Source of the DNA: a virus | Direction: 5' to 3' (one strand) | Length of the DNA: 24,196 nucleotides | IMG/VR virus record: IMGVR_UViG_3300020185_000258 | Location: 1 to 24,196 of that record | Shown: piece by piece, positions 18,530-24,196 of the stretch | How positions within the stretch are numbered: position 1 is the first letter of the stretch | How the letters are laid out: the number at the start of each line of letters is the position of its first letter | Translations under genes and position numbers: made by a program | The notes under the pieces: generated by a model | The model's input: the letters and a program-made list of their open reading frames with translations, nothing else | Databases searched by the model: none | What the model was told of the DNA's origin: nothing

Positions 18530-19015
18530 ATGTCAGAAGAAACACCAACTTACGGAGAATCTAATCAGGTTAACTGGACAGCTCCATTGAATATGATGCT
18601 TGTAGACTCTTATATGGGGCCTTACAAAACTTTTGCACTTGTTCCATTATCTTCAGACTGCCCATGGGTAGAAGTAATCTTTGAACCAACAGGTGGTACT
18701 TTGATTGCTATCTCTAGAGAGAAGAAGCAAACTTATAAAATGCTACCTAAGCTAGATGATAACGGAGATCCACAAGAATTGAAGTTAATGAAGCGTAATG
18801 GTGGCCAAGCTTACAAAGAAGAAAGACGTTTAGTAGAAACATTCCATGAGATTGTTATTACTGGTCTAGATTCTACACGTGAGTTTGTAAATCAGTTTGC
18901 TATCAATGCAGAAAGTTATGACTTTGAAAAGTACATGAAGCCTGCAGAAAGTAATATTGATAAATCTACAGGTAAACTAACTTCATTACCAGGAAGCACT
19001 CTTATTGTAGAATAA
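18530..19015 (+). CDS. unknown 161-aa protein coupled to DNA polymerase
   Basis: The protein is strand-rich and mainly beta: NMMLVDSYMGPYKTFALVP, PWVEVIFEPTGGTLIAIS, then a lysine-rich loop and HEIVITGLDSTREFV. It has no catalytic motif. The start follows an A-rich leader (AATTAAAATCAAAAAAA), and the stop overlaps the polymerase ATG as TAATG, so it is translated together with the polymerase. A polymerase accessory or DNA-binding function is a reasonable guess from that alone. The family is not recognised. Confidence 0.78.
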   Translation: MSEETPTYGESNQVNWTAPLNMMLVDSYMGPYKTFALVPLSSDCPWVEVIFEPTGGTLIAISREKKQTYKMLPKLDDNGDPQELKLMKRNGGQAYKEERRLVETFHEIVITGLDSTREFVNQFAINAESYDFEKYMKPAESNIDKSTGKLTSLPGSTLIVE

Positions 19016-21015
19016 TGGGTAAGCACTGGGTAATGGATTATGAAACACTTGCTGACTGTTTTGTTGGAGTGTTTGAACATATTAAATCAGATGAAGTAAA
19101 AGTCTTTGCAGTATCAAACATGCAAAATGATTTTGAAAGCTTTGTTGATTTCTTGTATTCTAACATTACAAACAATGAGTGGCATGTGTCATTTAACGGT
19201 TTAGCGTTTGACGCCCAGGTTACAGAATTTATTCTAGATAATCATGTAGAACTTAGAAGTTTTGATGGAGGACAGATAGCAGGTTATATATACCAGTTTG
19301 CTCAAGAAACTATTGACTTAATGCGTAATAAAATGTGGCCTAAGTATAGCCCTTTTAAAATGCGTATTAGACAAATAGATATTTTTAAGCTTAACCACTG
19401 GGATAATCCTGCTAAGATGTCTTCCCTTAAATGGATTCAGTATAGTATGGATTGGCATAACGTATTAGATATGCCTATTCATCATTCTGAACCTATTACA
19501 AACAAAGCTGATCATGATATGGTAATTGAATACTGTATTAATGATGTTGCTAGTACTAAGGCAATTATGTACTTAAGTAAGCAACACATATCATTAAGAC
19601 AGACTCTTACTAAACAATATGGTATAGATCTATATAGTGCGTCTGAACCACGTATCAGTAAAGAATTGTTTGCATACTATCTAAGTAATAACTTGGGTAT
19701 TGAAAAGAAACAGCTTAAACAGCTGCGTACATTAAGACCTATGATTAAGGTTAAAGATTTAATCTTGCCTTATGTAAAGTTTGAAACCCCAGAATTTCAG
19801 AAGTTATTAGAATTCTTCAATGGTAAGATACTTAATACAAGTCCTGAAAGTAAAGAGGGAACTAAAAACGCACTATCATATTCTGTTAAATACAAAGGTG
19901 TTAAAACAGATTATGGTTTAGGTGGTGTACATGGTGCTAATGAAAAGGGTATCTATGAAAGTAATGATGACTTTGTAATAATGTCTTCAGATGTTACTTC
20001 ATACTATCCCAATCTTGCTATTAGAAACAAATGGTCACCAGAACATCTTCCTAAAGATAAGTTCTGTGAACTGTATGAGTGGTTCTTTGATGAACGTAAG
20101 AAGATTCCTAAGAGCAATCCTATGAATTATGTGTACAAGATTATACTTAATTCAACTTACGGCCTTAGCAACGATGCTAATAGCTTTCTGTACGATCCTG
20201 AGTTTACTATGCGTATTACAATTAATGGTCAGCTTAGTTTAACTATGCTCTATGAAATGATATGTGAAGAGATACCAAACTGTACTCCTATAATGCAGAA
20301 TACAGATGGTCTTGAAACTATTATTCCTAGAGAGTATGAAGACAAGTACTATAAGATATGTGAACGCTGGGAAAAGATTACAAACTTAAACTTAGAACAT
20401 GACAAGTATCAGAAGATCATATTTGCTGATGTAAATAATTACATTGCTGTATATGATTGGAAAGAACTTGACTATCCACAGTGGAAAGAGCTTAGAAAAA
20501 AATCACCAAATGATTTATTTAAAGCAACTGATGGTAAGTTTCTATATGCTAGTGCAAAGTGTAAAGGTAGATTTGAATATAGTGGCTTAGCTCTGCATAA
20601 GAACAAGTCAAAGCTTATAGTGCCTAAAGCTATATTCAATTACTTTATACACGGAAAACTACCAGAAGAGTACTTACAAGAAAACCGCAACATTTTAGAT
20701 TACTGCATAGGTACCAAAGCTAAAGGTGAATGGAAACTAGAAATCCGTTCTATAGAAGATCAGGAGTTCACTGTAACACCACTTCAAAAAACCATTAGAT
20801 ACTATGTAAGTAAAAAAGGTGGTAAGGTTTTTAAGGCACACCCTGATGGAAGAGAACAACAATTAGTTGCAGGTAGATACTTGCAGACTATGTACAATGT
20901 GATAGACGAAAAAGAATGGGAAGAGTATAACATTGATACTCAATACTACAAGAAATTAATTGAAAAAGAGATTAACTCTATTATTCAAAAGGTTAGGCAA
21001 CTTAATTTATTTTAA
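19015..21015 (+). CDS. family B DNA polymerase with 3'-5' exonuclease
   Basis: In this 666-aa protein the N-terminal exonuclease domain has ExoI MDYETL (Asp8, Glu10), ExoII SFNGLAFD (Asn61, Asp66) and ExoIII YCINDVAS (Tyr173, Asp177). The polymerase motifs are A, SSDVTSYYPN (Asp326); B, KIILNSTYG (375-383); and C, MQNTDGLE (429-432 NTDG), where the usual first Asp of DTD is Asn while the catalytic second Asp431 remains. Length is short for family B and lacks the large insertions of cellular enzymes. No terminal protein gene is evident, and a primase and helicase are encoded, so RNA-primed synthesis is likely. A strong terminator follows. Confidence 0.93.
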   Translation: MGKHWVMDYETLADCFVGVFEHIKSDEVKVFAVSNMQNDFESFVDFLYSNITNNEWHVSFNGLAFDAQVTEFILDNHVELRSFDGGQIAGYIYQFAQETIDLMRNKMWPKYSPFKMRIRQIDIFKLNHWDNPAKMSSLKWIQYSMDWHNVLDMPIHHSEPITNKADHDMVIEYCINDVASTKAIMYLSKQHISLRQTLTKQYGIDLYSASEPRISKELFAYYLSNNLGIEKKQLKQLRTLRPMIKVKDLILPYVKFETPEFQKLLEFFNGKILNTSPESKEGTKNALSYSVKYKGVKTDYGLGGVHGANEKGIYESNDDFVIMSSDVTSYYPNLAIRNKWSPEHLPKDKFCELYEWFFDERKKIPKSNPMNYVYKIILNSTYGLSNDANSFLYDPEFTMRITINGQLSLTMLYEMICEEIPNCTPIMQNTDGLETIIPREYEDKYYKICERWEKITNLNLEHDKYQKIIFADVNNYIAVYDWKELDYPQWKELRKKSPNDLFKATDGKFLYASAKCKGRFEYSGLALHKNKSKLIVPKAIFNYFIHGKLPEEYLQENRNILDYCIGTKAKGEWKLEIRSIEDQEFTVTPLQKTIRYYVSKKGGKVFKAHPDGREQQLVAGRYLQTMYNVIDEKEWEEYNIDTQYYKKLIEKEINSIIQKVRQLNLF

Positions 21016-21257: not shown

Positions 21258-21416
21258 ATGAGAAATCCAAATCCTGCAAGCAAAGCCCAGTCTATGATTG
21301 CAAAACACCAAGGAAAACAAGAAGCTTTAATTCAAGCTCAACAGGTACTATATATGTCTACAAATTTTGTATACTGGGAAAGTGTAATTAATGAAATCAA
21401 CAACTATGAATCTTGA
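21258..21416 (+). CDS. 52-aa unknown protein
   Basis: This is a small polar protein (MRNPNPASKAQSMIAKHQGK at its start) rich in Gln, Ala and Asn, with a helical middle (EALIQAQQVLYMSTNFVYW). It has no membrane span. It starts a plus-strand group after a 37-bp divergent spacer and overlaps the next gene by up to 26 nt. Unrecognised. Confidence 0.55.
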   Translation: MRNPNPASKAQSMIAKHQGKQEALIQAQQVLYMSTNFVYWESVINEINNYES

Positions 21417-21729
21417 GAATTTTAATGAATTATTAGAACAAAGGTTTGACAAAACCAGGAGCATTCTAATTGAAAAGAACAAAGAGTATGGTCTTACAGA
21501 AGACGTACTCCACAGCTTTAGAGAGCAGGCAGACTTTAGCCTACATAAAACCGGTCCATCCGTATGTTGGGAGCTAATGGTAAAGCATCTGTACTCTGTA
21601 AGAAGAATGGTAACAGACTTTGAGGTAACAGGAATGCCACCAACAGAAGAACTTATGAATGAGAAGATAGGAGATACCATCAACTATCTTATACTCTTAG
21701 AAGCAATGTTTAAAGAGATGCAGCAATGA
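21391..21729 (+). CDS. DUF1599/Nmad1-like nucleotide-related protein
   Basis: This 112-aa protein has the pattern KNKEYGLTEDVLHSFREQA, then GPSVCWELMVKHLYSVRRMV and ending EKIGDTINYLILLEAMF. That matches the small helical DUF1599 (nucleotide modification associated domain 1) family, an all-alpha relative of MazG: Y-x-x-x-D before a basic helix, K-H/R-x-x-S, and a terminal D-x-x-NY-x-x-L. These proteins are common in phages and are thought to act on nucleotides, but their reaction is not established here. An in-frame ATG at 21406 is an alternative start. It overlaps the next gene as ATGA. Confidence 0.7.
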   Translation: MKSTTMNLENFNELLEQRFDKTRSILIEKNKEYGLTEDVLHSFREQADFSLHKTGPSVCWELMVKHLYSVRRMVTDFEVTGMPPTEELMNEKIGDTINYLILLEAMFKEMQQ

Positions 21730-21950
21730 ACGAAGAACAAGAAGAATTCTACTACAAAGTAAGAATTAAAACCAATGTAAAAGGAGATAAAGCAAGTAGT
21801 AGTTACATTATCAAAGCCCGTGCAGTTAATGAGGCAGACGCCAAAATGAAGATGCATGTGCGTAAGATCATGATGAAGCATGAAATAACTGACTACTCCC
21901 TAGATATTTTAAGTATTACTAACACAAATGTGATAGACTTTATTGTCTAA
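21726..21950 (+). CDS. unknown 74-aa protein
   Basis: This small protein has a strand (EEFYYKVRIKTNV), a central YIIKARAVNEADAKMKMHVR that resembles the AxxxxEAxxK helix of DpnD/PcfM-like mini-proteins, and a C-terminal strand (TDYSLDILSI). The resemblance is weak. It is coupled to the DUF1599-like gene by ATGA and ends just where a near-consensus promoter begins. Confidence 0.65.
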   Translation: MNEEQEEFYYKVRIKTNVKGDKASSSYIIKARAVNEADAKMKMHVRKIMMKHEITDYSLDILSITNTNVIDFIV

Positions 21951-21973
21951 ACTATTTAAGTTTACTATATTTG
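21943..21973 (+). promoter_or_regulatory. Bacteroidota-type promoter (TTG-N20-TATATTTG)
   Basis: TTG at 21943-21945 and TATATTTG at 21966-21973 are 20 nt apart and fit the Bacteroidota primary-sigma pattern TTG / TAnnTTTG exactly at all defined positions. It is the best such match I saw in an intergenic region of the window. Transcription would begin near 21980 and run into the hairpin-rich non-coding segment. Confidence 0.55.
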
Positions 21974-21979
21974 GTGAAT

Positions 21980-22252
21980 AAACCTGATAGATATGAAGCT
22001 ATTAATAGTTTGCACATTACTATACTTAATCAGCCAGCGGCTGAAATAATACGCAAGAGGTCGTATGTATTAAAGACTCTCCGGAGCTTATGGAGAGAGA
22101 AGGCTATTCAGTCTATTATAGGAAGATCCTCGTAATTTGTCACCTATAGTTTAGATCAAACTGAGCATACATAATTTTCATATCACTATGAATAGCAATA
22201 AGCCGGGGCACAGTAAGGAAGACATTTAAGAGAGGTCTTCCTTACCCCCGAT
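21980..22252 (+). ncRNA. candidate structured non-coding RNA
   Basis: The segment from 21951 to 22253 holds no plausible gene of more than about 20 codons. It is packed with hairpins: 22030-22044 (TCAGCC/GGCTGA, 3-nt loop), 22045-22071 (9 bp with one bulged G), 22077-22097 (CTCTCC/GGAGAG), 22117-22148 (TATAGG/CCTATA around inner structure), 22148-22162 (AGTTT/AAACT), 22177-22192 (TTCATA/TATGAA), and a final long one at 22204-22250 (5 bp, a 4-nt bulge, then 11 perfect bp). A near-consensus promoter lies just upstream on the plus strand. No tRNA fold is seen. The final hairpin lacks a T-run. A short frame, 21993-22049 (18 hydrophobic residues), lies near the 5' end. Strand and boundaries are inferred. 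Confidence 0.45.
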
Positions 22253-22253
22253 A

Positions 22254-22406
22254 TCATTTATCCTCTAAGTTAATTTGTAAAGTAAGTACAAATAAAAATA
22301 CTTGTATTGTAGTTACAGGCACTTCCTCTGTAGGACGTAAACATTCAACACCAACTGCAAACCTATCGTGAGGCCAGTGCATTATTAAAGTAAGACTCCA
22401 TTCCAT
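22254..22406 (-). CDS. 50-aa protein coupled to PhoH
   Basis: The protein (MEWSLTLIMHWPHDRFAVGV and onward) is mostly beta, with a hydrophobic C-terminal stretch (TTIQVFLFVLTLQINL) ending in EDK. Its ATG overlaps the PhoH stop as TAATG, the same coupling seen at other gene joints here. Its stop lies 3 nt from the large hairpin at 22204-22250. It could be a small soluble beta protein or weakly membrane-associated. No family is recognised. Confidence 0.6.
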   Translation of the reverse strand: MEWSLTLIMHWPHDRFAVGVECLRPTEEVPVTTIQVFLFVLTLQINLEDK

Positions 22407-23092
22407 TATCTATAATTTTCGTATACCTTAAGTATAGGTTCAACAATTGTATGACGATGGTTTTGTTTTAAAGTGATTACTTTAAACCCTTGCACTTGTG
22501 CTTCTAATGTATATAAAAAACCAAATCCAGAATCTTTCTTATGTCTTAAATCTATTTGAGCTTGATCCCCACATATAACCATGGTACTGCCTTTACCTAA
22601 ACGGCCAAGCATCATCTCCATTTGGTTCATAGTAACGTTCTGAGCTTCATCTAAAATAATTAAAGCATTAGTAAATGTTCTACCCCGCATAAATGCAAAG
22701 GGTACAATCTCTATTTGCCCTTCTTCAACGCACTTATCAATCTTAACTTTATCGTATAATAAGTACAAGTTATGGTATATAGGAGCAAGCCACGGATCCA
22801 TCTTTTCCTTGATATCTCCAGGAAGGAAACCAATGTCTTCTTTGGCCACTGTTGGTCTGGTGATAATGATCTTTTCAATTTGCTTTGTAAATAAGAGATC
22901 CAAACCAACTTGAACTGCCACCAAAGTTTTCCCACTTCCTGCCATGCCCTGTAAGACAGTGACTGGGTTTTCAAGTATTTCTGCTTTTGCAAGTTTCTGT
23001 TCTGCATTGAGATTGATGTTAAATTTAATAGGCTTCTTAGGTCTTCTCTTTGCTTTAAATACCTCATCTTCATGAGATCTAGCTGCTGCCAT
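22406..23092 (-). CDS. phoH: PhoH-family ATPase
   Basis: In this 228-aa protein a short basic N-terminus is followed by the PhoH core: LNAEQKLAKAEI, Walker A GMAGSGKT at 49-56, IIITRPTVAKEDIGFLPGD (75-93, the conserved RP and GxLPG region), Walker B LIILDEAQN (144-152), the ICGDQAQID motif (173-181) and a terminal KQNHRH with basic residues. The PIN domain of PhoH2 is absent. PhoH is an RNA-helicase-like ATPase very common in marine phages, with a debated role in RNA processing or phosphate stress. It starts 2 nt after the membrane protein gene. Confidence 0.93.
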   Translation of the reverse strand: MAAARSHEDEVFKAKRRPKKPIKFNINLNAEQKLAKAEILENPVTVLQGMAGSGKTLVAVQVGLDLLFTKQIEKIIITRPTVAKEDIGFLPGDIKEKMDPWLAPIYHNLYLLYDKVKIDKCVEEGQIEIVPFAFMRGRTFTNALIILDEAQNVTMNQMEMMLGRLGKGSTMVICGDQAQIDLRHKKDSGFGFLYTLEAQVQGFKVITLKQNHRHTIVEPILKVYENYR

Positions 23093-23661: not shown

Positions 23662-23824
23662 CGCAACCGTATGCTCTAGTGCTATCTAAATAGCTGTTAT
23701 CAGGATTACCTGTAGTTACATAACCCGTCTCATAATCCTTCTTGTTTTTTTGTACAAGTAAACCTGCTACAGCTAACAAGAAAAAGAATATAATTGCAAC
23801 TCTAAACTCTTTTATTATTCTCAT
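23654..23824 (-). CDS. 56-aa single-span membrane protein
   Basis: The N-terminus MRIIKEFRVAIIFFFLLAVA then GLLVQKNKK gives a short basic lead, about 17 hydrophobic residues and a stop-transfer basic cluster. A polar tail (YETGYVTTGNPDNSYLDS and onward) would face the periplasm or cytoplasm. It starts inside the stop of the receiver-domain gene (ATGA) and overlaps the coiled-coil gene, so all are coupled. Unrecognised. Confidence 0.65.
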   Translation of the reverse strand: MRIIKEFRVAIIFFFLLAVAGLLVQKNKKDYETGYVTTGNPDNSYLDSTRAYGCGD

Positions 23825-24196
23825 CGGTATACTTTAAATGGATTAGTCTTATTTACATAACCTTCATAGTCTTTATGAAACTCTTCTAGTCTTGGTTCAA
23901 TATCGTCTGACTTGATAATCCAAAACTGTGCGCCCACAGCTTTAGCTTTTTCTATTTCTTCTTGGTCAGAGCTACTTGATATAATACCAATAACACAACC
24001 GTTACCATAATCCTGATTAATTTTACGTATCATTTCTATACCATCAAAGCTAGAACCAATAATGTTAAGATCAACAAAGACACACTCAGGTCTTTCTTCA
24101 CCATTATCTGGAAACCAACTCTTAAACATCTTATCTGCTTCATCACTACTGTCTAGTGACTCTATTGATAATGCTATATCCAACATGGAGCAAGCA
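23821..24196 (-). CDS. response-regulator receiver-domain protein, 5' partial
   Basis: The frame is open through the right edge, so the N-terminus is missing; the first ATG in the window (24186) starts after the usual VDDD strand. The visible part follows CheY topology. Counted from that ATG, the phospho-acceptor strand is ECVFVDLN with Asp39, then DGIEMIRKI, IGIISSSSDQEEI with the Ser/Thr switch (70-72), and KAVGAQFWIIKSD with conserved Lys92 and an aromatic at Trp89. No output domain follows, so it is a stand-alone receiver. It could intercept a host histidine kinase or act with the membrane coiled-coil protein downstream. No kinase is encoded in the window. Confidence 0.8.
   Translation of the reverse strand, partial: ACSMLDIALSIESLDSSDEADKMFKSWFPDNGEERPECVFVDLNIIGSSFDGIEMIRKINQDYGNGCVIGIISSSSDQEEIEKAKAVGAQFWIIKSDDIEPRLEEFHKDYEGYVNKTNPFKVYR

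Follow-up and report, generated by a model that had tools for sequence, protein, structure and literature searches.

The intergenic gap at 21951-22253 almost certainly encodes a selected RNA structure on the + strand, in which a core of about 145 nt (22057-22203) is folded into a compact knot with several pseudoknots. Judged by comparison with known families, this structured RNA is a previously undescribed family of the phages that carry it. The DNA analysed here (the window) is the linear IMG/VR fragment IMGVR_UViG_3300020185_000258 with a length of 24,196 bases, and the case for the RNA is built on unusually clean compensatory changes that preserve a complex fold in only six sequences. A new structured phage RNA had already been proposed in a preliminary description of this locus, and the compensatory changes in relatives strongly support that proposal, as does the Rfam search, in which Rfam 15 gave no match at the gathering threshold in the window or in five homologous loci. 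However, the picture of stacked hairpins did not hold, a micropeptide ORF had been missed, and the evidence favours none of the functions suggested there (regulatory, decoy, packaging or defence-related) over the rest. The best sub-threshold Rfam match within 21900-22300 reached 16.5 bits, where the gathering score is 55.6, and lies on the other strand, and ARAGORN found no tRNA or tmRNA.

The replication genes (helicases, a primase and a DNA polymerase at 19015-21015) are located on the + strand of the window, and the gap is surrounded by the following genes:

21391-21729, + strand: phrog_6802 gene, the DUF1599-like gene of the preliminary description, without a match in Pfam
21726-21950, + strand: ORF of 74 amino acids following the phrog_6802 gene; the gap starts 3' of it
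21951-22253: intergenic gap harbouring the RNA, between a + strand unit ending at 21950 and a - strand unit ending at 22254
22254-22406, - strand: small conserved ORF of 50 amino acids that overlaps phoH and converges on the gap
22406-23092, - strand: phoH, likewise converging on the gap

The gap is thus positioned where two transcription units converge, as originally noted, and no gene is found downstream of the folded RNA on the + strand. The closest relative in a named phage is the phoH gene of Flavobacterium phage immuto, with 70.7% DNA identity and a different gene order, for which reason the hosts of these phages are probably Bacteroidota. Phages of Bacteroidota have so far yielded few structured RNAs, to our knowledge. 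The 50-aa ORF belongs to a widespread family of small proteins with the core motif HWPHDR, of which 97 relatives, often in different gene contexts, were recovered in one IMG/VR scan, and it has no match in Pfam or PHROG. Elsewhere on the - strand, the ORF at 23821-24186 gives a weak match to the response-regulator receiver domain (Pfam PF00072, 28.5 bits; cut-off 30.2).

A scan of IMG/VR with PhoH yielded five contigs (L002-L006) with 92-94% protein identity, the next best being 77%, and in all five the stretch adjoining phoH aligns with the gap of the window. The RNA core in these contigs is 54-72% identical to that of the window, compared to 87-90% for phoH DNA, and among all members the identity amounts to 53-92% for the core and 87-94% for phoH. 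The six sequences represent about four to five independent lineages. Within the collections searched, the family comprises six contigs of one phage group, with one copy each.

In the 5' to 3' direction, the RNA consists of the P0 5' strand, the P1 5' strand, the P2 hairpin, the P3 5' strand, the P4 hairpin, the P7 5' strand, the P1 3' strand, the P5 hairpin, the P3 3' strand, the P6 3' strand and a terminator-like hairpin. The core is organised around a pseudoknot of P1 and P3 and the pairing of the P2 loop with the 3' tail (P6), with P7 and P0 as weaker contacts. All elements are on the + strand:

22057..22060, + strand: P0 5' strand GAGG, partner CCUC at 22128-22131 in the P4 loop (tentative)
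22063-22068 with 22165-22170, + strand: P1, five different 6-bp helices in the six members
22077..22097, + strand: P2 hairpin, with a 7-nt loop NNGCUUA (22084-22090) that ends in invariant GCUUA
22103-22109 with 22190-22196, + strand: P3, pseudoknotted with P1, five different helices in the six members
22111-22115 with 22152-22156, + strand: P4a, first pair an invariant G-U, 29/30 pairs kept
22118-22122 with 22143-22147, + strand: P4b, 31/31 pairs kept
22162-22164 (UGA) with 22183-22185 (UCA) in the P5 loop, + strand: P7, 3/3 pairs changing on both sides
22179..22190, + strand: P5 hairpin CAUA-N4-UAUG, invariant in 6/6 members
22199..22203, + strand: P6 3' strand UAAGC, partner GCUUA at 22086-22090 in the P2 loop
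22204..22250, + strand: terminator-like hairpin of 16 bp in two blocks, directly abutting P6 (z -5.3)

Compensatory changes were counted for a fold of 33 pairs, written by hand with helices partly chosen by eye on the very six sequences tested, using a six-sequence MAFFT alignment (A2) that was not fitted to the fold. The paired cells reach 96.0%, compared to 82.7 +/- 1.6 in shuffles, 17 of the 33 pairs change on both sides (6.5 in shuffles) and the covariation score is 0.483 (0.188 in shuffles); none of 500 shuffles reached the observed paired fraction, both-side changes or covariation score. Furthermore, sliding the partner by 1-3 columns reduces the pairing to 34-42%. When RNAalifold was given the alignment as its only input, it returned P2, P3, P4a and the terminator hairpin independently. 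Exchange of strands between members points in the same direction, with P1 keeping 36/36 pairs within members versus 61/168 after the swaps and P3 keeping 42/42 versus 144/196, although these counts lean towards structure because the segments were chosen by eye, and the test on alignment A2 is the fairer one.

At the level of single helices, both-side changes occur in five of the seven pairs of P2, which is 100% paired, in five of the seven pairs of P3 and, by helix count, in four of the five pairs of P4a. Together with P1, these helices are well supported by the alignment. P7 is formed by UGA/UCA, UGG/CCA, CAG/CUG or CGC/GCG in the different members, where L002 requires a shift of one column, and its partner sits in a 4-nt loop, which is sterically tight. 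P0 would pair in a flexible register (GAGG/CCUC, UGGG/CCCA, CGGG/CCCG, GGAG/CUCC and GGGA/UCCC across the six members). P6 can form 4-5 bp in all six members and is almost invariant; as both P5 and P6 hardly vary, they are beyond the reach of covariation. The pairing of the terminator-like hairpin is likewise preserved through both-side changes at many of its pairs.

The paired columns contain 16 G-U cells and no A-C cells, which identifies the + strand as the one that carries the RNA. The same cells bear on the possibility that the stems are DNA hairpins belonging to an origin, a packaging site or a bidirectional terminator. Such a DNA-level element would suit a position between convergent units and near replication genes, as well as a terminator hairpin that is strong on both strands, but the 16 G-U cells, including the invariant one in P4a, would turn into A-C mismatches in the other strand, and long-range pseudoknots are untypical of such elements, which makes this explanation quite improbable.

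Folding energy contributes little to the case for the RNA. The whole stretch folds better than shuffled sequence on both strands (z -3.5 on the + strand and -2.6 on the - strand), as the preliminary description would have it, but the terminator hairpin accounts for most of this effect: leaving it out gives a z-score of -1.20 for 21978-22200 and -0.71 for 22055-22200. The energy of the core is therefore unremarkable and the case rests on covariation, while the energy test is uninformative for this core because the fold is pseudoknotted, as expected. The six compact hairpins in a row that were originally described are replaced by a nested and pseudoknotted fold on the evidence of covariation, and the hairpins of the minimum free energy structure are partly unconserved, as for example CAGCC-AGC-GGCUG near 22030-22045. 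The long stem of that structure (21949-/22147-) was, as judged by eye, not kept in relatives. The last of the described hairpins, an interrupted stem of 16 bp, corresponds to the 16 pairs at 22204-22250; a standard scan found no qualifying U-run or T-run 3' of it.

In five of the six members, the RNA makes up the 3' portion of a short unit that also has a promoter-like element and a hydrophobic ORF of 15-18 codons. The 5' part of this unit contains, in the window:

21943..21973, + strand: exact match to a Bacteroidota-type promoter-like element TTG-N20-TATATTTG, with TTG at 21943-21945 and TATATTTG at 21966-21973
21948..21964: 17-nt palindrome TAAACT-N5-AGTTTA, which fills the promoter spacer and starts at the stop codon of the upstream gene
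21993..22049, + strand: micropeptide ORF MKLLIVCTLLYLISQRLK (18 aa), 5' of the RNA fold

The promoter-like element had been reported before and is indeed exact, yet chance alone would give a mean of 0.69 such matches over a length like that of the window. Its support as a predicted promoter is moderate and comes from its position and its conservation in relatives: the TATNTTTG box occupies the equivalent position in L003, L004 and L005, is degraded to TATCTTAG in L002 and is absent from L006. For comparison, the -7 box of F. psychrophilum has the consensus TAnnTTTG at positions -12 to -5 (PMC9723704). Transcription would be expected to start at about 21978. The palindrome is kept in all five contigs that retain the promoter region (window and L002-L005), and its chance expectation for the window is 0.03 copies; it is intact only at this site in the five contigs, where other matches are imperfect, and it may be an operator. 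In L006, the promoter, the palindrome and the ORF are all missing.

The region had been described as non-coding, a claim that is contradicted by the conserved 18-codon ORF at 21993-22049, while the folded core is, as claimed, free of any conserved frame. ORFs of 15-18 codons are found at the equivalent place in the window and L002-L005 (MKLLIVCTLLYLISQRLK, MIMLLGFIAILFIAKTLR, MAFILTALLFFIIARKS, MFYLLLFIIALVITD and MLYFILFLILLKITD). The five micropeptides align poorly, but all are strongly hydrophobic, a property confined to the ORF frame among the three, and T is enriched at codon position 2. Their mean hydropathy was reached by none of 20,000 nucleotide shuffles and all five frames were open in only 0.4% of shuffles. 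From this composition, insertion of the micropeptide in the membrane can be inferred. As counted on the sequences, a stop codon ends 3-11 nt 5' of P0 in all six contigs, and in L006 the position of the micropeptide stop is occupied by the stop codon of the upstream gene. A conserved short ORF and a conserved RNA structure thus coincide in one region in five of the six members, which is the pattern of a dual-function small RNA, and the peptide ORF and the RNA are likely to share one transcript. This transcript would be a single RNA of about 270 nt, running from ~21978 to ~22252.

With 15-18 aa, the hydrophobic peptides match the known Ibs toxins in shortness, and with a structured mRNA they call to mind a type I toxin-antitoxin-like unit, in which the micropeptide would be a membrane toxin and the RNA would control its translation or stability. 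This is very improbable, as L006 retains the RNA without the peptide and the conserved pairing is internal to the fold, leaving out the start of the ORF.

The function that we propose tentatively, with somewhat less than even confidence, is that of an autonomous, trans-acting RNA module of a new family at the 3' end of a micropeptide mRNA. The folded domain would serve as a regulator, or a scaffold, that binds a protein or the ribosome, and the peptide ORF would be a dispensable second function, giving a dual-function transcript. L006 is a natural variant in which the RNA occurs without the peptide: it keeps the fold with compensatory changes of its own despite the loss of ORF and promoter, and transcription of its RNA would have to come from upstream. 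This suggests that the RNA module is the essential and constant part, and favours the autonomous module over a cis-acting 3' UTR element. In the latter explanation, which is possible but doubtful, the knot and the terminator would protect or control their own mRNA, for example by blocking exoribonucleases or by sensing translation termination, the mRNA being that of the micropeptide ORF or, in L006, of the phrog_6802/74-aa operon. The stop codon shortly 5' of the fold in all six contigs, even in L006 where it belongs to a different gene, the lack of a downstream gene on the + strand and the position of the fold immediately next to the terminator hairpin all agree with an element in cis. However, a simple hairpin would be enough for mere protection, and the upstream ORF has been exchanged, so that the members lack a specific target gene in common. 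As P0 and the P1 5' strand would be overlapped by a ribosome that terminates at the nearby stop, translation could gate the folding of the RNA.

The compactness of the core, its several pseudoknots and its conserved unpaired stretches (GAAG, CAG, YAAAC and AAUAAGC) would also be in keeping with a ribozyme of a new fold, self-cleaving or otherwise catalytic, but the ribozyme families in Rfam are unmatched, a conserved context for a cleavage site was not identified and exon-like flanks are absent, making catalysis unlikely. A group I intron-like topology, with a P3/P7-like pseudoknot and a P8-like hairpin, was considered and set aside on the lack of an Rfam match and of exons. On a broader view, the locus might, with limited probability, represent a novel functional RNA class whose tertiary fold is its own, with four or five pseudoknot contacts interlocking within ~145 nt, and which is coupled to translation of the micropeptide, the stop codon of which is just upstream; examples of such a class would be a novel ribozyme or an RNA by which the phage captures a host protein or the ribosome. 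If trans-acting, the RNA would be a phage tool inside the host, and if cis-acting, it would be a 3' UTR structure of a kind that is rare in bacteria and their phages. Its size is suitable for in vitro transcription and probing.

Only general comparators were found in the literature, namely the L17 downstream element, Downstream-peptide RNA and large ornate RNAs. Staphylococcal RNAIII is a dual-function RNA that contains the delta-haemolysin ORF and acts by antisense hairpins. The phage transcript, as predicted, would resemble it in combining a short ORF for a membrane-active peptide with a long structured RNA, but RNAIII is bacterial and employs antisense hairpins, whereas the phage RNA is a compact multi-pseudoknot, and no relation in sequence or structure is claimed. 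The large RNAs GOLLD and ROOL are linked to phages. They are orphan, metagenome-linked RNAs that are conserved and ornate and whose role is obscure (PMC12286853); the phage RNA is likewise conserved, ornate and without an assigned role, but is much smaller and has no Rfam match. The L17 downstream element (RF01708) is a structured RNA in the 3' UTR behind a coding gene, often with no gene downstream (PMC2864571), and the phage RNA likewise lies directly 3' of a coding gene without a downstream gene. However, the L17 element occurs in other taxa, and the phage RNA has a micropeptide ORF on its 5' side, is heavily pseudoknotted and is not matched by this or any other Rfam family. In Downstream-peptide RNA (RF01704)/yfr6, a structured RNA and a short ORF go together on one transcript of ~250 nt (PMC2864571), as they would in the phage locus, but there the RNA precedes the ORF, whereas the phage RNA, which this family does not match either, follows it.

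Further members were sought with specific and permissive gapped patterns over viral contigs, a pattern over genome contigs, a covariance model (R1) applied to whole contigs and to every phoH, DUF1599, polymerase and 51-aa-protein locus, and a descriptor free of sequence applied to the retrieved loci, none of which added to the window and the five contigs; distant relatives may escape the covariance model, as it was built from six sequences. Several candidates were judged to be chance matches: a model match in L082/L090 (E 0.67) inside an ORF of 1098 aa, a pattern match in L280 inside an ORF of 541 aa, candidates in L174, L279, L196 and L197 without a model match, and a partial match at G001:40356-40444 (E 0.02) that partly overlaps reading frames. 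T5-like phages gave blastn matches (E 2) in a stretch where no genes are annotated, but these disagree with the model.

The surroundings of the RNA are variable as well. The region from the polymerase to phoH (21391-22406) diverges far faster than phoH, with protein identities to the window of 30-53% for the 74-aa ORF and 54-60% for the 50-aa ORF, and is a possible diversification hot spot. L006 has almost the same terminator hairpin as L003 and L005 despite an RNA core with only 57% identity to theirs, which points to recombination at that spot. In two phages with a PhoH identity of 76-78% (L015 4817-4984 and L017 4684-4851), the micropeptide and the RNA are replaced by a 55-aa protein with one hydrophobic stretch.
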